Shown here one piece after another: positions 8,251 through 53,697 of a DNA stretch of 64,000 nt. How positions within the stretch are numbered: position 1 is the stretch's first letter; each line of letters begins with the position of its first letter. Origin of the DNA: Catenulispora sp. EB89 (lineage in GTDB: Bacteria > Actinomycetota > Actinomycetes > Streptomycetales > Catenulisporaceae); NCBI RefSeq assembly GCF_041261445.1, contig NZ_JBGCCU010000001.1, positions 1 through 64,000 of the forward strand. The letters are read 5' to 3'. Both the position numbers and the translations under genes were made by a program. The notes beneath the pieces were generated by a model. That model searched no databases, was not told where the DNA came from, and was given only the letters and a program-made list of their open reading frames with translations.

Positions 8251-8808
8251 ATGAGGATTCGCTATAGAGGAACCGCCACTGTGGCCCTGGCCGCGCTCAC
8301 AGCCACGGTCGCCACAGGCGTCGCCTTCGCACCGTCCGCCACGGCGGACGCCAGGAGCACACACGCCACGACCGGCCGAGTCTGCATGTTCGACGCACCC
8401 AAAGGTGCACTGTCCCTCGGGCACGTCGGCTGGGCCTTCCGCTGGTCCGACGGCAGCGACACCTGGGACTACGGCGCCACTCTGGCGAACAGCAACTGGG
8501 AGAAGCACGGGACGGAGCAGCAGATGCTCCACGACTTCGCGACGGCGAACGACTCCGGCGGTTACCAGAGCTACCGCTGCAAGGACACGGCCACGGACGA
8601 CCAGAGCATCGCGGAGTCGACGGTCACGGCCGGCTTCGCGCGGTCCTACAACCTGATCAACGACAACTGCCTGACGCGTTCGATCGAGATCTTCAAGGCG
8701 TACGACGGCTCTGGAGGGCTCAACAGCCTGCCCGATGGGAAGTTCGTCTTCCCCAACGCCTACTTCAATTACGACCTGTCCGGCTGGGATGCGTCGAAAT
8801 CGCTATAG
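8251..8808 (+). CDS. Secreted protein with permuted papain-like (NlpC/P60-type) pattern
   Basis: This 185-residue protein has a Sec signal peptide (about 1-32, ending AFAPSATADA). GGAGG lies 5 nt before the ATG. The mature part has GHVGWAF near residue 57 and NDNCLTRS near residue 138, with Cys residues at VCMFDAP and YRCKD. A histidine before a cysteine in HVGWxF...NxNC is the order seen in circularly permuted papain-fold enzymes (LRAT/YiiX type), so a cell-wall or ester-bond hydrolase is possible. I have seen similar proteins in streptomycetes, uncharacterised. It is a single gene with a hairpin after it. Confidence 0.65.
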   Translation: MRIRYRGTATVALAALTATVATGVAFAPSATADARSTHATTGRVCMFDAPKGALSLGHVGWAFRWSDGSDTWDYGATLANSNWEKHGTEQQMLHDFATANDSGGYQSYRCKDTATDDQSIAESTVTAGFARSYNLINDNCLTRSIEIFKAYDGSGGLNSLPDGKFVFPNAYFNYDLSGWDASKSL

Positions 8809-8816
8809 CGTTCCCC

Positions 8817-8843
8817 GCCCCCGGGCTCCTATGTCCCGGGGGC
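8817..8843. terminator. Bidirectional terminator hairpin
   Basis: A perfect 9-bp stem (8817-8825 with 8835-8843) and 9-nt loop lie between the convergent secreted-protein and kinase genes. Confidence 0.75.
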
Positions 8844-8875
8844 TCCGCATAGCCGCCGCATACGCCGCTGCGTGC

Positions 8876-11149
8876 TCAGTCCGCCTTGAACCCGTGCACG
8901 GTGGTGCCGTAGCCGGCGAAGACGTAGGTGTCGTTCGCGACGATCTGCCAGCTGGTGTTCGATCCGGCAGCTGCCGGATCGTGGAACTGCCAGAGGGTCT
9001 TGCCTGTCTTGGCGTCCAGTGCGACCAAGGTGCCGTTCACACGGTCGGCGGCGTAGAGAACTCCCCCGCCGAGCGCCAGCTGGCATTCCAAGCTCGGATC
9101 CAGATAGGACTTCGGCCACGTGGATCGCCATAGAGGTCCTCCGTCGGAGGCCCTATAGGCGGCGATCACACTGTTGCCCAACGTAACGCTCGATGCCGCG
9201 AAGACGGTGTTGTCGTCCGCGATGACCGCGTGGAACGAGCCGCCGTCGCTCTCGGTGACGCCCACCGGCCACAGGGCACGGCCGTTCGCGTCGAAGGCGT
9301 AGAGGCGGTTGGTGGCCCAGTAGATGGACGTGCCATGGCTGGTGATGTCGGTGGCGAACGCGGGATCGGTCGCCGGGGAGGTGTCCTGGGCGGTCCACGC
9401 TTGGGCGCCGGTCTTGGCGTCGTAGGCCGTCAGCTTGCTGTCGTGCGGCTGCGACAACAGGACGAGGCCGGTTCCGGCGCTGTAGTAGGGCACGCGGTCC
9501 ACGGCGCCGATCTGCGTCTGCCACCGCAGCTGGTGCGTCCGCGGGTCGACTCCCCACAGGCCGTCGTTGGCGGGCTGGTTGGCGTCGATGTAGGACCAGC
9601 CCACGACCATGTCCGATGAGGCCCCGATGAGGCCGCGCGTCAACCAGTTGGCCGGTCCGGGCACGCTCCAGGCCGGGCGGCCGTCCGCGACGGTGACCGC
9701 GACCAGGTCGCTGCCGGCGGCCGCGGTCTCGTACGCGGTGTCCGCGGTGGCGGGGAAGACGCCGTCGTTGAGCTGCGCGTAGGTCCCGGTGGGGACGGTC
9801 CAGCGCTGGGTGCCGGCGGCGGTGTCGAAGGCGGTGAGGGTCGTGCCCTGGACCAGAAGGGTGTTTCCGGACAGGGCGAGGAAGTCGGCGTAGACGCCGG
9901 TGTGGGACCACAGGGGGTTCTTCAGGGGGCCGCCGAGGCTGCCGTTGCTGACGGTGGTGGGCAGGCCGGACGGGGGGTTCGAGCCGGGGTCGCTGGTCTC
10001 GGCGCCGGTCGTCTTGGCGTCGCCGTGGGGCATTTTGGCGACACCGGCGCTGAACGCGGCTACCGCTGCGCCCGCCAGGCCGAAGTAGAGAAACTTTCGG
10101 CGGGTCGGGGTGTTCTTGGCAGCGTCGCGGTCCTTGCGGTCCTTAGCGTTCTTCGCACCTTTGCCCGGCTGGGCGCGCATGAGGGTCGTCGGCGTGGTCG
10201 CGATCTCAGCGTTCTGGGTGCCCGACGACGCGGCCAGGAGGAGGTCGTCCAGCTCCCGGGTATTGGTCTTCGTCTTTGTCTTTGTCTTGCTCTCTGTCTT
10301 CGCGGGGCGCTTGGTCTGCGCCGTGCGCTTCTCGTCCTTCCCGTTCCCGTTCCCGCCCAGGAGCTCTAGGAGAGAGTCCGTAGTAGGGCGGGCCGTAGGG
10401 AGCGTGTCCAGACAACGGGACACGACGTCGCGCAGCCCTTCGGGAACCCCTGAGATGTCGCGCTCCCCGGACGCCTGGCGGAGCAGCACTCCCGGCGTCG
10501 GGCCGTCGCCGAACGGTCCGTGCCCGGTCGCCGCGTAGGTCAGGACGGCGCCGAGCGCGTAGATGTCGGCCGCCGCGTCCGCGGCACCGCCGGCCGCCTG
10601 CTCGGGCGCCATGAAGCCGGCGCTGCCGAGCACGTAGCCGGTCTCGGTGAGGCCCTCGCCGTCCTCCGCGCGGATGATGCCGAAGTCGATCAGGCGCGGC
10701 CCGTCCGCCGCCAACAGGACGTTGCCGGGCTTCAGGTCGCGGTGCACCAGCCCGACGCGGTGGATGTCGCGCAGCGCCTCCGCCAGCCCCGCACCCAGAG
10801 CCCGCGTCTCCTGCGCACCCAACGGCCCGCCATCGGCGACCCGGGAGAGCAACGACGGCCCGTCGATGTACGCGGTCGCCAGCCAGGGACGCTCGGCATC
10901 GGGATCGGCATCCAGTACGGCCGCCGTATAGGCACCGCTCACCGACCGCGCGGCAGCCACCTCCCGCCGGAACCGCTCCCGGAACCGCGGATCATCGGCC
11001 AGCAGATCCCGCACCACCTTCACGGCCGCCAACCGCCCGCCCGGCGACCGTCCGAGGAACACGTCGCCCATGCCCCCGCCCCCGATCCGTCCGGTCAGCT
11101 CATAGGGGCCAATACGCGCGGGATCGGTGGAACGCAAAGGACGCGTCAT
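8876..11149 (-). CDS. Transmembrane Ser/Thr protein kinase with PQQ-type beta-propeller sensor
   Basis: This protein is 757 residues from the ATG of MTRPLRSTDP; a GTG 21 nt earlier is possible. The kinase domain (about 13-265) is complete: GGGGMG loop, Lys44, HRDLKPGN with Asp138, DFG 155-157, APE. A charged linker follows with a run of Lys-Thr dipeptides, then a single membrane helix (about 350-375, preceded by RRKF). The outer part holds repeated W-x2-G-like blades (LVALDAKTGKTLWQF) of a PQQ-type propeller. It is a receptor kinase of PknD-like layout; ligand and targets are unknown. A tRNA gene lies upstream on the same strand. Confidence 0.93.
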   Translation of the reverse strand: MTRPLRSTDPARIGPYELTGRIGGGGMGDVFLGRSPGGRLAAVKVVRDLLADDPRFRERFRREVAAARSVSGAYTAAVLDADPDAERPWLATAYIDGPSLLSRVADGGPLGAQETRALGAGLAEALRDIHRVGLVHRDLKPGNVLLAADGPRLIDFGIIRAEDGEGLTETGYVLGSAGFMAPEQAAGGAADAAADIYALGAVLTYAATGHGPFGDGPTPGVLLRQASGERDISGVPEGLRDVVSRCLDTLPTARPTTDSLLELLGGNGNGKDEKRTAQTKRPAKTESKTKTKTKTNTRELDDLLLAASSGTQNAEIATTPTTLMRAQPGKGAKNAKDRKDRDAAKNTPTRRKFLYFGLAGAAVAAFSAGVAKMPHGDAKTTGAETSDPGSNPPSGLPTTVSNGSLGGPLKNPLWSHTGVYADFLALSGNTLLVQGTTLTAFDTAAGTQRWTVPTGTYAQLNDGVFPATADTAYETAAAGSDLVAVTVADGRPAWSVPGPANWLTRGLIGASSDMVVGWSYIDANQPANDGLWGVDPRTHQLRWQTQIGAVDRVPYYSAGTGLVLLSQPHDSKLTAYDAKTGAQAWTAQDTSPATDPAFATDITSHGTSIYWATNRLYAFDANGRALWPVGVTESDGGSFHAVIADDNTVFAASSVTLGNSVIAAYRASDGGPLWRSTWPKSYLDPSLECQLALGGGVLYAADRVNGTLVALDAKTGKTLWQFHDPAAAGSNTSWQIVANDTYVFAGYGTTVHGFKAD
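10264..10302 (-). repeat. Lys-Thr dipeptide microsatellite in the kinase linker
   Basis: On the minus strand a near-perfect AAGACA/AAGACC hexamer array encodes TESKTKTKTKTNT. It lies between the kinase domain and the membrane helix. Length change by slippage would alter the juxtamembrane linker without a frameshift. Confidence 0.7.
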
Positions 11150-35969: not shown

Positions 35970-36069
35970 GGGAAATCCCGCGCCGGACACGCGTCGCGGC
36001 GCGCCGCCGCACGCCTGCGACAAGCACCGGTCATCACCCCCACACTCAGGCGTTGATTGATGGCGAATA

Positions 36070-36098
36070 TTGACACTCTGGGACGCGGCGCCTATACA
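36070..36098 (+). promoter_or_regulatory. Strong promoter TTGACA-N17-TATACA
   Basis: The -35 TTGACA (36070-36075) is perfect and the -10 TATACA (36093-36098) near-perfect, with an exact 17-bp spacer. It reads toward the TadZ-TadA-LysM/BTAD genes, whose first start codon is at 36541. Confidence 0.75.
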
Positions 36099-36127
36099 GG
36101 GTTCTCTGGCGCAATCACAGAGAACCC
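36099..36127 (+). promoter_or_regulatory. Inverted repeat at the transcription start
   Basis: GGGTTCTCTG (36099-36108) and CAGAGAACCC (36118-36127) are perfect 10-bp arms around 9 nt. It begins right after the -10, so it is either an operator or a 5' hairpin of the message. Confidence 0.65.
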
Positions 36128-36280
36128 CCAGCTCAGCACCTCACCGGCGGTCCGACGGACCGCGGATCGGAGCAGGTGAGACCCTGCTCGCCCGGCGCGA
36201 CAGGGCCCTGCGACACCGGTGGCGAACCCCGACCAATCCACAGGACTACATCGGTCGCGACTGGTTACAACTGAATCAGA

Positions 36281-36304
36281 GTTCTCATTGGTTTCAGCGA
36301 GAAC
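36281..36304 (+). promoter_or_regulatory. Second GTTCTC...GAGAAC inverted repeat in the leader
   Basis: GTTCTC (36281-36286) and GAGAAC (36299-36304) are spaced by 12 nt; the repeat at the promoter has the same half-sites spaced by 13. The shared half-sites suggest one DNA-binding protein using both. Confidence 0.45.
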
Positions 36305-36540
36305 CCGACAGCGCCGAAACGATCAGAACAAGTCCGCGCAATGCCACACAGCACCACCGCGCTACCGAACAACCGGGAAAGAGCTCAGCCGATGTGTACC
36401 GCACCCGCCCCACCGCCCGCCGGCGGCGGCGTCAGCCCGAGCGCGCCGTCCGTCCCGCCGACGGCGGCCGCAGCGGCGGACCGCCGCCCGGTCCGACGTC
36501 CGGTCCGACGACCGCGGGGACCCGCGACCCCGGGTGTGCC

Positions 36541-37389
36541 ATGGCGATGATCTGCCTGGTGTCGGCCAAGAACTCGCCCGGAGTGACCACCACCGCGGTG
36601 GCGCTGGCCGAGGCGTGGCCGCGTCCGGTGCTGCTGGCCGAATGCGACCCGCGGTACGGCGACATCGTGGCCGGCTACCAGCAGGGCGGCGGGGACGTGG
36701 CCAAGGGGCTGCTCGGACTGGCCGCGATCCACCAGCACACCGACATCCGGCAGGAGATCTTCCGCTACGTCCAGCCGCTGAGCCCGAGCTCCCCGGCCCG
36801 GTTCCTGGCCGGAGTCCAGGTGCCGGCGCAGGCCGCGGCCGTGTCAGTGCTCTGGGAGCCGCTGTCCCGGGTGCTGCCCGCGCTGGTCGTGAAGCGGCGC
36901 ACGGTGGACGTGCTCGTGGACTGCGGGCCGCTGCACGCCGCGCACGCGCCGCTGCCCCTGATCCAGCACGCCGACCTGGTGCTGATGGTGACCGGCGACC
37001 ACCTGGAGCAGATCCGCGCGGCGCACGACGCGGTCGGGACGATCGCCGAGCGGCTGGCCGCCGCCCGGCCGCACGCCGACCCGCGCTGGTGCCTGGCCGG
37101 CGTGGTGATCCCGCCCGGCGCGCGGCGCCACAACGAGCGCGCGGCGATCGAGCAGGCGCTGGAGATCGACGTGATCGCCGAGGTCCGGCACGACCTGAAA
37201 GTCGGCGCGGAGCTGCTGGGCCGCCGGAACCTCCCGAACGGTTATTCACGCTCGGGATACATGAGGGACATCCGGGAGTTGCAAGCTGCTATCGACCGCC
37301 AGTTGAACCGCCCGGCTCCGCCGGCGCGCACCGTCGCCTCGAACCGCCGGCTGACGGTGGTACCCGGGGAGGCCGCCCATGCCGGGTGA
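36541..37389 (+). CDS. TadZ/CpaE-like ATPase with degenerate P-loop
   Basis: This protein is 282 residues from the ATG of MAMICLVSAK; a later ATG (36547) is possible and no strong ribosome site decides. It has the ParA/MinD fold: a deviant Walker A as KNSPGVTTTAVAL (residues about 10-22, lacking the second lysine), LLAECDPRYGDIVAG, and DVLVDCGPL as Walker B. TadZ proteins place Tad/Flp pilus machinery at the cell pole. The gene overlaps the TadA/CpaF gene by 11 nt. Actinobacterial TadZ-like proteins often show this SPGVTTT loop, so nucleotide turnover is doubtful. Confidence 0.85.
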   Translation: MAMICLVSAKNSPGVTTTAVALAEAWPRPVLLAECDPRYGDIVAGYQQGGGDVAKGLLGLAAIHQHTDIRQEIFRYVQPLSPSSPARFLAGVQVPAQAAAVSVLWEPLSRVLPALVVKRRTVDVLVDCGPLHAAHAPLPLIQHADLVLMVTGDHLEQIRAAHDAVGTIAERLAAARPHADPRWCLAGVVIPPGARRHNERAAIEQALEIDVIAEVRHDLKVGAELLGRRNLPNGYSRSGYMRDIRELQAAIDRQLNRPAPPARTVASNRRLTVVPGEAAHAG

Positions 37390-39394
37390 CAAGTTCGACC
37401 CGAGACACGCGCAGGGCGGCGGGCCGGGCCGGTCGCGCGGCAGCGGCCGCAGCGACCAGGTCTCGGAGCTGCGCGACGCGATCGCCTTCCTGAACCGGGA
37501 GAGCGTCGCGCTCCCGGATCCCGGGACCCCGCCGTGGGAGGACCACCCGCAGGCCGATCCGTCGCGCCCCACCACCGGTGGACAGAAGCCGCCGCTGGCA
37601 CCGGTCCGCGAACTCGGGCCGGCGCAGGGCCGACCTGCCGCCCACGCCCTGCCTCCCGCGCCGCCCCCGCTTGTGGAGAACGCCTTGCACTTCCAAGGAG
37701 CGCAGAGCGCCAACCGCCGCCAGCTCCCGCCGCCGCCGTCGTCCCAGCCGCTGCCCCAGTCCTTGTCCCAGCCCCCGGCGCCGGCCCCGGCCCCGCCCCT
37801 GGACGAAGGCACGAACCGCTCGCGCCACGAGCTCGCGCTCCGCTTCGGCGGCGGCTCGGAGTACCCGCCGGATCCCAAGCCCGCGCAGGGGATCCACGCC
37901 TTCTCGGCGGTCGACTGGCCCGGCGTCGACGTCATCCGCAAGCAGGTGCGCGAACGGATCACCGAGCAGTTCCCGCGCCCCGACTCCGGCACCGACGAGC
38001 AGCGCCGAGCCTTCGGCATGGCGGTCATCGAGGAGGCGGTGAACTCCTGGTCGGCCCGGGCCGCGGCGCGCGGGCAGGCGGTCGACGACGCGCGCCAGGA
38101 CGCGATGCGCCGGGCCGCGGGCGCCTGCGTCTTCGGCATGGGCGGCCTGGCCCCGATGCTGGACCACCCCGACGTGGAGACCATCGAATACCGGGGCTGC
38201 GACGACGGCCACGTCGTCTACACGGACGGCCGGGTGGAGAAGGCGCCGCGGATCGCCTCGTCGGACGAGTCGCTGCTGGCCGACATGCGGACCTGGGCCG
38301 CCCGGCGGCACCGGATCCTGACCCCGGCCGAGCCGCTGCTCGACCTGACCGTGGACGGCGGCGCGCGGCTGACCGCGACCATCGGCGTGTCCCGGCGGCC
38401 GACGCTGGTCGTGCGCCGGCACCGGGTCGTGAAGGTGACGCTGGACGACCTGGTGGTGCGCGGCATGGTGTCGCCGGCGATCGCGGCGTTCCTGCGCAGC
38501 GCGGTGCTGGCCGGGCAGACGATCGTGGTCACCGGGCCGCTCGACGCCGGCAAGACGACGCTGCTGCGCGCGCTGGCCGCGGAGATCCCGGTGATGGAGC
38601 GGTACGCGACGGTCGAGGCGGAGTTCGAACTCAACCTGGACGAGATCGGCCGGCATCCGCGGATGGTGGCGTACCAGTCGTGGCCGGGGACCGCCGAGCG
38701 CGGCCCGGACGGCCGCCGGATCGGCGAGGTCACGCTGTCCGACGTCATCGAGGTGGCGCTGCGGATGAACGTGGCGCGACTGGTCGTCGGCGAGGTGCGC
38801 GGGCCGGAGGCGGCCACGCTGCTGGAGGCGGTGTCGACCGGCGGCCGGGCGGCGCTGTGCGCGATCCACTCCGGGTCCACGCGGGAGGCGTTCAACAAGT
38901 TCGTCATGCTGTGCATGCGGACCACGATGAACCGGGACTCGGCGGTCCAGCTGGCCGCCGAGACCCTGCACTACATCGTCGACATCCGGATGGACACCGA
39001 GCCCGCGACCGACATGCGGGAGCCGCGCGCCACCGCGCGCTACGTGGACCGGGTGGTCGAGGTCAACGGGCTCGGCGAGCGGCTGGCGCCGGTCGTCACC
39101 GAGATCTTCGCCCCGGGGCCGGACGGCCGGGCGGTGTTCGCGCAGCGGCCGGAGCGGCTGGCGACGTTGCAGCGCGCGGGGTTCGACCCCAAGTGGTTCC
39201 TCTACGGGAACGACCAGTGGTACGTCGCCCCGACGCCGGCCGCGCAGAACGTGTCGCGGCCCGCGCCGCACCAGCAGCGCGAGGGCGGTCGTGGCTTCCA
39301 GAACATGACGCCGGTGCCGAAGCCGTCCCTCACCGAACAGGACGTCTTCGACCGGCAGTACCTGCACGAGCGGCGGCGGCTGGACCAGGAGTGA
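37379..39394 (+). CDS. TadA/CpaF-type secretion ATPase
   Basis: This protein is 671 residues. The first 170 or so are Pro/Gln-rich and disordered. The type II/IV secretion ATPase core follows: the N-terminal domain (IRKQVRERITEQF...), Walker A GPLDAGKTTLL (about 385-395), an Asp box (EFELNLDEIGRHPRM), Walker B LVVGEVRGPEA, and the histidine motif CAIHSGS. It powers assembly of Flp pili or pseudopili. The usual TadB/TadC membrane proteins and TadE/F pilins that should follow are absent; instead a LysM-BTAD gene starts one base after its stop. Confidence 0.92.
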   Translation: MPGDKFDPRHAQGGGPGRSRGSGRSDQVSELRDAIAFLNRESVALPDPGTPPWEDHPQADPSRPTTGGQKPPLAPVRELGPAQGRPAAHALPPAPPPLVENALHFQGAQSANRRQLPPPPSSQPLPQSLSQPPAPAPAPPLDEGTNRSRHELALRFGGGSEYPPDPKPAQGIHAFSAVDWPGVDVIRKQVRERITEQFPRPDSGTDEQRRAFGMAVIEEAVNSWSARAAARGQAVDDARQDAMRRAAGACVFGMGGLAPMLDHPDVETIEYRGCDDGHVVYTDGRVEKAPRIASSDESLLADMRTWAARRHRILTPAEPLLDLTVDGGARLTATIGVSRRPTLVVRRHRVVKVTLDDLVVRGMVSPAIAAFLRSAVLAGQTIVVTGPLDAGKTTLLRALAAEIPVMERYATVEAEFELNLDEIGRHPRMVAYQSWPGTAERGPDGRRIGEVTLSDVIEVALRMNVARLVVGEVRGPEAATLLEAVSTGGRAALCAIHSGSTREAFNKFVMLCMRTTMNRDSAVQLAAETLHYIVDIRMDTEPATDMREPRATARYVDRVVEVNGLGERLAPVVTEIFAPGPDGRAVFAQRPERLATLQRAGFDPKWFLYGNDQWYVAPTPAAQNVSRPAPHQQREGGRGFQNMTPVPKPSLTEQDVFDRQYLHERRRLDQE

Positions 39395-39395
39395 C

Positions 39396-42335
39396 ATGGC
39401 GGACGACGGGGGCGTCGCGCAGGCGAGGCCGCGATCGGGTGCGGTTTCGGTATCGGCTTCGGGGCAGGAGGCCCCGGAGTATCAGACGTATGTCGTGCGC
39501 AAGGGCGACTCGCTGTGGCGGATCGCCGAGGAGCAGTTGGGCGATCCGAACCGCTTCGCGGACATCGCCGAGCTGAACGACGGCCGGCGGATGCCGGACG
39601 GGACGGTGTTCAGCTACGTCGAGTTCCTGCAGTCGGGATGGGTCCTGATCATGCCGCCGGACATGGGGCGGCACCGGCCGCCGGCGGCGGCCGGCGAGCG
39701 CGGGCGGTTGGCGCTGGAGGCGGGGCCCGGTTCCGGCGGTTCCGGTGCTACCGGCGCTACCGGGACCGAGGGCGGTGCCGCCGGTGGCGCGGCGGCGGCC
39801 GACGACCCCCGGCGGCAGTCCACGTTCGCCACGACGCGCAACGACTCCGGCAAGACGGTCGCGGCGACCGGCGGCCTCCTGGCCGCCGGCGTGTTGAGCA
39901 CGCTGGGGGACCGGCGGCTGCGCAAGGTCATGCGGCGCCGCCCCGGCGAGCGGATCTCGATGCGGCAGCCGGGGGAGTGGGAGCTGGAGCTGAGTCGCGT
40001 CGACAACCCGACCGGCCAGGTGCTCATCGACGCCGCTCTCAGGACCCTGAGCGCCCGGCTCACCAAGGCCGACCGGGGGCTGCCGGACATCACCACGACG
40101 GTGCTCAAGTCGCACGGCCTGGAGCTGCACCTGGCGCGCCCGCAGCCGCCGGTCGCGCCGTTCTACGCGGACCCGCAGCGTCCCGGGGTGTGGATCTGCC
40201 CGCTGGGGGCGCAGGTCGGTACGCATCCGGGGCACGCGCCGGCGCCGTACCCGGCCCTCGTCTCGCTGGGCTTCGACGGGGACGACGACACGGTCCTGGT
40301 CGACCTGGAGGCGACCGGCGGGGTCTCGCTGCTGGCCCCTGAGGCGGAGGCGGTGTCGGTGCTGCGGGCGATGGCCGTGGAGCTGGCGACCGGGATGGCG
40401 GCCGAGCAGGTCGAGGTGACGCTCGTCGGGTTCGGGGCGGAGCTGCCGTCGCTGTTCGCGCCGGGGACGCTGAACCACACCGAGGATCTGGTGCGCGCCG
40501 TGGAGGCGCTGGCGCGCTGGTCGGCCGGCGTCGAGGCGGTGCTGGACCGGCGCGGCGTGACCGTGCGCAAGGCGCGCACGCACCCGGACGACGAGCTGGC
40601 CCCGATCACGAAGACGCACGTGCTGCTCTCGGCGGTGGCGCCGGACCTGCGGCTGACGCACCGGCTGCGGCACCTGCTGTCGGGGCGGCAGCGGACCTCG
40701 ATCGCGGTGGTGGCGGTGGCCGACGACCGGGAGCAGCTGCTGTCGCCGTGGACGATCGGCGCGCCGGCGTTCCACACGCCGCGCTCGCAGGCCGGGGTGC
40801 CCGGGCTCGCGCTGCGGGTGCAGGCGCTGCGGGAGGAGCGGTACGCCGCGGTCGTGCGCGAGCTGTCGGCGGCGGATTCGGATCAGGAGAAGCCGGCGCC
40901 GCGCGGCGACGGGGCTTTCAACCTGCCGTCGGTCCCGGCGGTCGAGGCGGAGAGCCCGGGGAGTCCGGGGACGAAGACGCCGTTGCCGAAGCGGAAGCCC
41001 GCACATCCGCGGCGGCATGTCGCGGGGCGGGGGGCCGGTGCGAGTGCCGGTGCCGGTGGTTCGGGCGGCTCAGGCGGCGACGCCGGCGGTCGGGGGAGAG
41101 CCGGGTCGTCGCACTCCGAGACGCATCCGGCGGAGCGCGTCGAGCTGATCGCGACACCGGATCCGGTACAGCCCAACCGTTTCCGCGTGCCTGTCGACGA
41201 CCTGTTCCGAGTGGACGCGCTGCTGCCGACCGCGCTGCCGACGACCACCGCGCCGTTGCCGGGGCCGGGGACGGCGAAGCAGGTCCGGCTGGCACTGAAG
41301 CCGGCGAACCTGCCGCAGTTCGATCCGGCCGCCGACGGGGAGGAGGAGCCCCCGCCGCCCCGCGCGGAGGATCGGTTGGTGGGGATCGAGGCGGACCTGC
41401 CGGGCCAGCACGGACGCGCCGCGTTGGCTGCGCCGGGTGCTCAGAGCCCTCACCCCCCGACAGGTACGCGACCGAATCGGCCGGCGCTGCCGTCCTCATC
41501 GCTGGCGCTGCCCGAGCCCGCTCGCATGGCGGCGCCTCGGAAGCCGGGGCAGTGGCAGGGTGCGTATTGGAGTCAGCGCAGGGCGGCTGCGGCGGGGATG
41601 CCGAACCGCGCCGAGACGCCGGACGAGTCCGTCGTGCTCGGTCCGTCCTACGCGATCGACATCCTGGGCCCGATCGTGCTGGCCGGTGCGACCGACGACG
41701 CGCCGGAGCTCGCCGAGATCGCGGCGTACGTGATCCTGCACCCGGGATGCTCGATGGACCAGCTGGCCGCGGACCTGTGGCCGGCCCGCGCCGGCGCGCT
41801 GAGCATCGTCGACGCGCAGGTGATCCAGCTGCGCGAAGTCCTCGGCACGGACGCCAACGGCGAGCAGCTGCTCCGGATCGCGCCGGAGAGCGTGACGCTG
41901 GCCCCCTCACTGTCCTGCGACTGGCTGGAGTTCGTGCACCGCACCCAGAACGGCGAACTGGTCGGCGCGCTCAGCCTGCTCCGAGGCCGGCCCTTCGAAG
42001 ACGGCCCGCTCCGCCGCTACGGCTGGGCCGAAACGCTGCGCCACGAAATGGCGGCGCTGGCGATAGACACGGCGCACTACGTCGCCGAGGCATGCCTGCA
42101 CGAACAGAGCCCCCGCAGCGCCCGCAAGGCGGCCCTGCGTGGTCTGGCGGCCGCCCCGGAATCAGAACTCTTGTACCGCGACCTCCTGTCCGCCCTGGCC
42201 GCCCTCGGCGACCTCCCCGCGGCCCGCCGCCACGCCGACGCACTCCTGGGCTACGCCGAGCGCGAAGGGCTGCCGCTGCAACCGGAGACGGCCGCGATGC
42301 TGCGGGACGTAGCGCAGGCAGCCGCGCGAAGCTGA
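39396..42335 (+). CDS. LysM and BTAD domain protein of the Tad module
   Basis: This protein is 979 residues. A LysM domain is at the N-terminus (about 30-88, YVVRKGDSLWRIAEEQLGDPNRF). One possible membrane helix is near 152-170, then a mixed domain (about 190-490) and a long Pro/Gly/Ala-rich linker. The end is a winged-helix plus bacterial transcriptional activator domain (about 745-975, SYAIDILGPIVLAG, LAADLWP, CDWLEFVHR, PESELLYRDLLSALAALGD). Related proteins accompany actinobacterial Tad loci and usually carry N-terminal membrane helices before LysM; they are missing here. A wall sensor linked to a SARP-like regulator is one reading. Confidence 0.85.
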   Translation: MADDGGVAQARPRSGAVSVSASGQEAPEYQTYVVRKGDSLWRIAEEQLGDPNRFADIAELNDGRRMPDGTVFSYVEFLQSGWVLIMPPDMGRHRPPAAAGERGRLALEAGPGSGGSGATGATGTEGGAAGGAAAADDPRRQSTFATTRNDSGKTVAATGGLLAAGVLSTLGDRRLRKVMRRRPGERISMRQPGEWELELSRVDNPTGQVLIDAALRTLSARLTKADRGLPDITTTVLKSHGLELHLARPQPPVAPFYADPQRPGVWICPLGAQVGTHPGHAPAPYPALVSLGFDGDDDTVLVDLEATGGVSLLAPEAEAVSVLRAMAVELATGMAAEQVEVTLVGFGAELPSLFAPGTLNHTEDLVRAVEALARWSAGVEAVLDRRGVTVRKARTHPDDELAPITKTHVLLSAVAPDLRLTHRLRHLLSGRQRTSIAVVAVADDREQLLSPWTIGAPAFHTPRSQAGVPGLALRVQALREERYAAVVRELSAADSDQEKPAPRGDGAFNLPSVPAVEAESPGSPGTKTPLPKRKPAHPRRHVAGRGAGASAGAGGSGGSGGDAGGRGRAGSSHSETHPAERVELIATPDPVQPNRFRVPVDDLFRVDALLPTALPTTTAPLPGPGTAKQVRLALKPANLPQFDPAADGEEEPPPPRAEDRLVGIEADLPGQHGRAALAAPGAQSPHPPTGTRPNRPALPSSSLALPEPARMAAPRKPGQWQGAYWSQRRAAAAGMPNRAETPDESVVLGPSYAIDILGPIVLAGATDDAPELAEIAAYVILHPGCSMDQLAADLWPARAGALSIVDAQVIQLREVLGTDANGEQLLRIAPESVTLAPSLSCDWLEFVHRTQNGELVGALSLLRGRPFEDGPLRRYGWAETLRHEMAALAIDTAHYVAEACLHEQSPRSARKAALRGLAAAPESELLYRDLLSALAALGDLPAARRHADALLGYAEREGLPLQPETAAMLRDVAQAAARS

Positions 42336-42397: not shown

Positions 42398-42730
42398 TCA
42401 GCCGTGGAAGTCGACGCGGTCGATCAGCCCGTCGCGCACCCGGTACGCGACCAGCACGCGGACCGGATCGTCGGCCAGACCATGGGCGACTTCGTGGTCG
42501 ACCACCCAGTCGCCTTCGCTGAGCCGCGCCAGGATCTCCGCCCGGCAGCGGCCTTCGACGAACTGTCCGGCGTACTTGTCGCGCAGCGCCTGGCGTCCCT
42601 CCAGCCGGCTGCCGTCGCTCCGGTTGACGACGACGTCCTCGGCATAGGTGGCGACGAAGGCGTCGATGTCGTGGCTGTTGTATGCGGCAAGCTGCTGCTC
42701 GACGACTTCGCGGGGATCGATCATGTACAT
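42398..42730 (-). CDS. SnoaL-like / NTF2-fold small protein
   Basis: This protein is about 110 residues; starts at 42736, 42730 or 42724 are all ATG and 42730 has the better spacing from a GGA. The sequence VVEQQLAAYNSHDIDAFVATYAEDVVV...GRQALRDKY is the NTF2/SnoaL cone-barrel signature. Members include ketosteroid-isomerase-like and polyketide cyclase enzymes. It lies 20 nt after the cyclase-family gene on the same strand and so is probably in its operon, under regulon operator 4. Confidence 0.8.
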   Translation of the reverse strand: MYMIDPREVVEQQLAAYNSHDIDAFVATYAEDVVVNRSDGSRLEGRQALRDKYAGQFVEGRCRAEILARLSEGDWVVDHEVAHGLADDPVRVLVAYRVRDGLIDRVDFHG

Positions 42731-42750
42731 GATCATTCCACGCCGCGCCG

Positions 42751-53043: not shown

Positions 53044-53697
53044 CTAGACCGCGACCGGCTTCTTCTGCGTGATCCCCATGAAGACCAGCCCGATCATCGC
53101 CGCGCGCAGCTCGGCCAGCTTGATGCTCCAGGCCTCGAAGACGCGCTGGTGCGCCGAGATCGAGGCCAGCATCGCCACCAGCGCGCCGGCGGTCGCGGTC
53201 GGCGGCATCACGGCGTCGGCCTTGCCGGCGGTCTGCAGCTCGGTGATCGCGTCGGCCAGCGAGATGGTGACGTTGTTCAGGATCTTCATGCGGATCTTGT
53301 GGAAGCGCTTGTCGCCCTCGGCGGTGGCCAGGTCCACCACGCGCAAGATCGCCTCGTGCTCGTTCCAGAACTCCAGGAACCCGTCGACCAGCGCCTCGGC
53401 GGCCTGCATGCCGGCCCGGCCGGACCAGATCCGGCCGTCCGCGAGCTCCTTCAGGTGCGCGCCGTCCTTGGCCATGTCGTTGGCGATCTCGATGATCGCC
53501 GACTCGATGTCCGGGAAGTACTGGTAGAACGTGGCCGGGGAGGTACCGGCCAGCCGGGCCACGTCGATCACCGTGATCGAGCGGTACGGCTGCCCGACGA
53601 GCATCTCGCCGAGGCACTCCAGCAGCCGGGCCCGGGTGGCCTGGCCGCGCTTGCCCGCGATCCGCCCGTCGACGGTGCGCACTTGCTGAGCTGTCAT
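53044..53697 (-). CDS. TetR-family regulator, probable master repressor of the catabolic regulon
   Basis: This protein is 217 residues. The N-terminal DNA-binding domain (about 17-65) has RGQATRARLLECLGEMLVGQPYRSITVIDVARLAGTSPATFYQYFPDIESAI. The remainder is a helical ligand domain. It sits at the centre of the ligase/hydratase/SDR genes, and an operator of the regulon type overlaps its own start codon. By analogy with KstR and other TetR repressors of acyl-CoA regulons, an acyl-CoA intermediate would release it from DNA. Which protein binds the sites has not been shown. Confidence 0.85.
   Translation of the reverse strand: MTAQQVRTVDGRIAGKRGQATRARLLECLGEMLVGQPYRSITVIDVARLAGTSPATFYQYFPDIESAIIEIANDMAKDGAHLKELADGRIWSGRAGMQAAEALVDGFLEFWNEHEAILRVVDLATAEGDKRFHKIRMKILNNVTISLADAITELQTAGKADAVMPPTATAGALVAMLASISAHQRVFEAWSIKLAELRAAMIGLVFMGITQKKPVAV

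Follow-up and report, generated by a model that had tools for sequence, protein, structure and literature searches.

A short row of tad genes in the window (the whole stretch of 64,000 nucleotides that we analyzed) looks to us like what a complete Tad (Flp) pilus locus has become after losing its platform, a soluble ATPase-regulator module derived from it, a reading that we hold with slightly more confidence than doubt. The reduction itself is evident in gene content, position, monophyly and selection. The module cannot assemble a pilus by itself, and the parts remaining in it are those that are cytoplasmic in a tad machine; since selection nevertheless keeps the three genes, they have probably taken on another job. 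The features of the locus are:

36070..36098, + strand: promoter-like element TTGACA-N17-TATACA, common to the complete tad locus of relatives
36243..36284, + strand: conserved leader block of 42 bases, single copy in the genome, from the species alignment
36541..37389, + strand: TadZ-like P-loop protein, 282 aa, with a MinD/ParA-type start (SAKNSPGVTTT)
37379..39394, + strand: TadA/CpaF motor ATPase, 671 aa, with intact catalytic residues
39396..42335, + strand: protein of 979 aa with a LysM domain, an FtsK/EccC-like domain and a SARP-like (wHTH+BTAD) end, without clear membrane helices

The initial annotation had described the three genes as an operon, and their arrangement bears this out: they are co-directional, the tadZ-like gene and tadA overlap by 11 nt, and a single nucleotide separates tadA from the lysM gene. 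Its start of the module at 36070 has to be moved to the tadZ start at 36541, because the TTG of the open reading frame called there is simply the beginning of TTGACA in the promoter-like element, and the 570 bases 5′ of tadZ (35970-36540) show single-base indels between species and no coding bias. The reported absence of TadB, TadC and TadE/F genes at the module holds: no gene for TadB, TadC, TadE, pilins, CpaB or a prepilin peptidase adjoins the three genes, and T2SSF had no match in the window neighborhood or at the other reduced loci examined.

As had also been noted, the module splits a row of CoA genes, sitting between acyl-CoA dehydrogenase genes on its left and a cyclase gene on its right, where SnoaL_2, SDR and ADH genes are found as well. 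The SnoaL_2 gene (42398-42736, minus strand) occupies the place of TadV in complete relatives. The G+C content across the module (0.70-0.76) is close to that of its surroundings. The palindrome CTGACNNNNNGTCAG has 11 matches in the window with at most one mismatch (31485-58051), against 2.95 expected, distributed across the catabolic genes; none falls between 33.64 and 43.71 kb, and the module is indeed free of this regulon palindrome, whose likely owner is the TetR_C_38 regulator encoded at 53044-53682. Positions 1-120 of the window are a contig end that we take to resemble the beginning of a 16S rRNA gene in antisense.

The reduced form is present in seven genomes: that of the window (G000), Catenulispora rubra (G001), C. 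pinistramenti (G002), G004, G007, C. pinisilvae (G008) and G009, one of which is a single contig of 10,467,782 bases. Gene order around the module is identical in the six relatives, and the flanks are common to all seven. In C. pinisilvae the module is followed by an extra gene for a 432-aa protein, located before the cyclase gene (L067:4565-5860). The same flanking genes enclose parts of a fuller tad locus in G003 (a Catenulispora MAG), G005 and G006, so that tad genes stand at this spot in all ten genus members examined (seven reduced, three complete-type). On the left side, all three have a lipoprotein-like gene, followed in G003 by CpaB (SAF), TadZ, TadA and TadB, after which the contig ends. 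The right side of G006 holds the end of TadC, then Flp, TadE, a TadE/F-like and a TadG-like gene, LysM-BTAD and TadV before the cyclase gene; that of G003 has TadE/F-like, TadG-like, LysM-LysM-BTAD (1304 aa) and TadV, and that of G005 has LysM-LysM-BTAD (1325 aa) and TadV, both again followed by the cyclase gene. The Pfam matches in G003 are SAF (CpaB), T2SSF (TadB) and the A24 peptidase (TadV). These assemblies are drafts of 77-90% completeness in which the complete locus is split over contigs, and we infer from the flanks shared by the three genomes that the left and right ends form one complete locus. In four genomes from other genera of the same family (G010-G013), neither acd1 nor the cyclase gene of the flanks has a close copy, and these genomes therefore provide no outgroup for the spot.

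A search with TadA across 60 genomes, including that of the window, found orthologues of 88-96% identity in the six other genus members with the module and of 62% in G003; all remaining matches were at 41% or below (matches at 76% and 70% are pieces of the G008 and G009 orthologues). In the TadA tree the seven reduced sequences are monophyletic (100/100) and sister to the G003 TadA, with branches of 0.25 for G003 and 0.40 for the reduced stem. TadB adjoins TadA in 21 of 22 loci in relatives (the single miss is at a contig end), and among 80 loci with a LysM protein, 36 have TadA, TadB and TadC, three (reduced Catenulispora) have TadA alone and 41 have none of these; put otherwise, 36 of the 39 LysM loci with TadA also have TadB and TadC. 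Given the tree, this pairing of TadA with TadB, the shared promoter, the leader matches and the start of the LysM protein, the module fits a reduced form of a complete tad locus that would have arisen by one loss, not by gain.

The promoter and leader tie the two forms together. TTGACA and TATAC are identical in 9/9 aligned species (six reduced, three complete; G008 was left out); a consensus promoter scan, which accepts only a second hexamer ending in T, reported no site. The leader block at 36243-36284, which shows little or no variation across six species, is similar to the segment that separates the lipoprotein gene from cpaB in complete loci and is perhaps a second promoter. Further downstream, positions 36374-36490 match the region 5′ of cpaB in G003 (L068 7048-7159) at 70% over 118 bases. 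A structured leader RNA was considered and rejected (10 of 148 predicted pairs changed on both sides, and many pairs were broken); Rfam gave no match for the leader at E values of up to 1.

Within the reduced group, dN/dS (Nei-Gojobori, our own script; 21 pairs, or 15 for acd2) was 0.153 for TadZ, 0.186 for TadA (0.137 for its core) and 0.295 for the LysM-BTAD protein; in the flanks it was 0.127 for luc, 0.131 for acd1, 0.153 for acd2, 0.116 for the cyclase, 0.136 for SDR and 0.115 for ADH. Between the reduced and complete forms the values were 0.38 for TadZ and 0.48 for TadA (seven pairs each, with G003 only) and 0.51 for LysM-BTAD (21 pairs), versus 0.10-0.22 for the flanks, at similar dS (0.50-0.66 in the module, 0.35-0.74 in the flanks). 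As a control, the complete-locus TadA on C2 gave 96.0/94.5% identity and dN/dS of 0.058/0.080 between G000 and G005/G006 at dS 0.42-0.43; the module TadA, compared between G000 and G003, gave 67.8%, 0.475 and 0.49, respectively. The high ratios between forms and the low ratios within the group indicate that the module proteins diverged rapidly at about the time of the loss and came under constraint afterwards; the G003 branch is also long, and therefore part of that speed belongs to the complete form. Reading frames are open in 7/7 reduced species (tadA of G008 is split over two contigs), and, as judged from the sequences, the three remnant genes are not decaying but retained by selection. The initial suggestion of a decayed pilus locus was thus right as to origin and wrong as to uselessness, the genes being intact and under purifying selection in all seven reduced genomes.

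TadZ is an atypical P-loop ATPase, and TadB and TadC form one platform, according to excerpts of PMC6668835 and PMC11300603. The window TadZ had no Pfam match and no PDB sequence match, and its best NCBIfam match was ParA at 17.5 bits; the name reflects the position of the gene and a 33% identity to the protein encoded at the TadZ position in a complete tad locus.

TadA is identified by PF00437 (70.2 bits against a cut-off of 24.9) and by a CpaF match (4e-24). The residues of the Walker A, Asp, Walker B and His boxes are present in all seven reduced TadAs, as are the CpaF catalytic residues K287, E312, R347, E357, R359, H382 and R223; within the His box, HANS has changed to HSGS or HAGS in five of the seven. 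In CpaF, D208 has been proposed as a platform contact and E331-G334 are also predicted contacts (PMC11300603, in part). Of these, the module TadA keeps E331 and G334 and has D208 replaced by T and G332 by R; position 208 is D in most other TadAs. The change at D208 had suggested itself as a consequence of the loss of TadB, an idea that we dropped because the G003 TadA, which has TadB, also has D208 replaced (by S); G332 is likewise lost there. D220 is G in 7/7 reduced TadAs and D in G003.

In the third protein, the LysM domain is recognized by PF01476 at 21.1 bits (cut-off 20.9). BTAD (PF03704) scored 11.1 bits, below its cut-off of 22.1, and this half of the LysM-BTAD label is carried by orthologues and predicted fold. 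All three complete forms have three membrane helices before LysM; the window protein starts at the methionine after the third of these (AAMADAP), and on this comparison its membrane anchors are lost. No helix in the N-terminal half exceeds the hydropathy threshold of 1.6 in any of the seven reduced forms, with helix 4 at 1.06-1.33 (1.59-1.99 in the three complete forms); two reduced proteins have a marginal window of 1.64-1.65 near residues 737-764, in the C-terminal domain. Constraint is strongest in LysM (dN/dS 0.069) and weakest in the N-terminus and linkers (0.43-0.77). The structure model (mean pLDDT 64.7, 19 sequences) predicts LysM at 30-88, an alpha/beta domain at 150-495, disorder at 497-718 and a wHTH-BTAD end at 750-978. 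The alpha/beta domain is predicted to resemble FtsK (Z 15.4) and EccCb1-D2 (Z 14.6), and the wHTH-BTAD end AfsR (8k60; Z 14.9, rmsd 5.4 over 221 residues) and EmbR (2fez; Z 14.5, rmsd 5.2 over 224 residues). The sequence of the FtsK/EccC-like domain contains no GK[ST] motif, and so this domain is probably not an ATPase. Elsewhere, a cluster at L084:3015-9935 encodes a 1470-aa protein, two short proteins (94 and 99 aa) and a LysM protein; in the latter, the region around 8688-9659 has a 32% match to the window protein in its LysM and middle domain. The cluster looks to us like a type VII secretion locus.

The 11.9-Mb window genome has five T2SSE ATPases, of which four belong to other tad loci, each with one or more T2SSF and one or more TadE genes. 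One of these loci, L023, is a textbook tad locus (CpaB-like, TadZ, TadA, TadB, TadC, Flp-like, TadE, TadE, TadG-like, LysM-BTAD). All 7 T2SSF and 8 TadE matches of this genome fall in these four loci, and no orphan TadB or TadC was found in it. G004, G007 and G009 have six T2SSE matches each; the module ATPase is again without nearby T2SSF, the others have T2SSF nearby except G007:C47, which shows none, and all T2SSF matches over the cut-off adjoin another ATPase (one sub-cut-off match lies at G007:C6). A relocated TadB was also sought and rejected, the best matches in the seven reduced genomes being 31% or less. A streamlined system working with membrane parts encoded elsewhere, as once envisaged, is conceivable but finds no support, either in the TadB/TadC-type genes of the window genome, all of which belong to the four other loci, or in a close copy of the lost TadB, which the seven reduced genomes lack. 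The initial annotation had named two findings that would count against its account, relatives with full tad genes at this spot and a complete second tad locus with its own ATPase; fuller tad genes do occur there in the drafts G003, G005 and G006, and the four other loci have their own ATPases.

On our reading, the common ancestor of seven or more Catenulispora species lost several parts of the locus: the lipoprotein and CpaB genes, the stretch from TadB through TadG together with membrane helices 1-3 of the LysM-BTAD protein, and TadV, the prepilin peptidase. The promoter and three cytoplasmic parts were retained. TadZ, TadA and the LysM protein would now, most likely, form a soluble complex, with TadA as an ATP-driven hexamer and TadZ as its ParA/MinD-like partner. 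We infer that ATP turnover by these two may control the SARP-like end of the LysM-pseudoATPase-SARP protein, which, off the membrane, would be an ATPase-controlled regulator whose LysM domain binds a ligand or partner in the cytoplasm. A bolder version, which we put forward as speculation with the odds against it, is that the pilus machine has become a wholly soluble signaling device in which TadA and the ParA-like TadZ power or gate a LysM-FtsK-like-SARP transcription factor that has no membrane anchor, LysM reading a wall precursor or partner protein in the cytoplasm and not the finished wall.

Other explanations deserve weight according to the same evidence. The four other tad loci and the intact catalytic residues of TadA would suit a module whose TadZ and TadA are an extra or alternative motor for one of those loci, the LysM protein acting as regulator, but each T2SSF over the cut-off adjoins the ATPase of another locus, the module TadA is 32-40% identical to three of the other TadAs of its genome (the fourth falls below the reporting limit), and D208, which is T here, and D220, which is G in 7/7 reduced TadAs, are both replaced; we consider such sharing unlikely. 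A relic awaiting loss is a less probable, disfavored reading: genes clearly were lost, the LysM protein evolves fast in its N-terminus and linkers and the His box has changed in 5/7, but the promoter is retained, the frames are open in 7/7 species (tadA of G008 in two contig pieces), and dN/dS of TadZ and the TadA core is at the low level of the metabolic genes in the flanks, with LysM lower still.

Helix 4 of the LysM protein might still enter the membrane and leave LysM on the outside; the protein could then be a membrane-bound sensor whose LysM faces the wall and whose SARP-like end reports wall state. The strong conservation of LysM and the positively charged stretch after helix 4, which fits a C-in topology, speak for this; we nonetheless find it rather improbable, as there is no signal or N-terminal helix, upstream there are only 29 more open codons without a start codon (979 versus 1008), some 150 residues would need export as an N-tail, and hydropathy stays below threshold in 7/7. 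That a partial tad module was recently inserted into the catabolic regulon, for which the broken row of regulon genes and the missing palindrome would speak, is contradicted and has next to no chance of being correct: tad genes occupy the place in 10/10 genus members, in complete form in three, and both G+C and synonymous divergence resemble the flanks.

With the soluble ATPase-regulator module as our preferred reading, the genus offers two states of a single chromosomal site for comparison, a type IV filament machine and the same machine minus platform, pilins and peptidase, in which the cytoplasmic motor parts stay under selection after the machine is gone. This comparison makes testable the role of TadZ-TadA without a pilus and the purpose of the LysM-BTAD proteins found with many actinobacterial tad loci. 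Among the papers listed in our search of the open-access literature, none dealt with a platform-less tad module, with Catenulispora tad loci or with the function of the LysM-BTAD proteins of tad loci.

Several known systems share parts with the module. The SARP activators AfsR and EmbR share its predicted C-terminal wHTH-BTAD fold (Z 14.4-14.9), but in the window this end is fused to LysM and an FtsK/EccC-like domain, at 18-19% identity and with a sub-cut-off BTAD profile. Caulobacter CpaF (8rkd/8rjf/9e24) and the window TadA have the same seven catalytic residues; unlike CpaF, the window TadA has D208, D220 and G332 replaced, the first and last of these in G003 as well, and its locus is without platform proteins. 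Ssd (Rv3660c) of Mycobacterium tuberculosis, like the window TadZ a TadZ-position protein, is reported in an excerpt of PMC3095998 to affect septation and a stress response; it sits among tadA, tadB, tadC, flp, tadE and tadF, as far as the excerpted text of PMC9531140 describes the locus, whereas the window TadZ sits in a reduced module. The actinobacterial type of tad locus with LysM-BTAD is itself already in print (PMC3666418): the Propionibacterium acnes plasmid locus PAGK_2360-2370, as given in Table 2 of that paper, runs RcpC/CpaB, TadZ, TadA, TadB, TadC, a protein listed as unknown, three TadE and LysM-BTAD. The window parts follow in the same order, without CpaB, TadB, TadC, the unknown protein and the three TadE, and with a LysM-BTAD protein that has no clear membrane helices.
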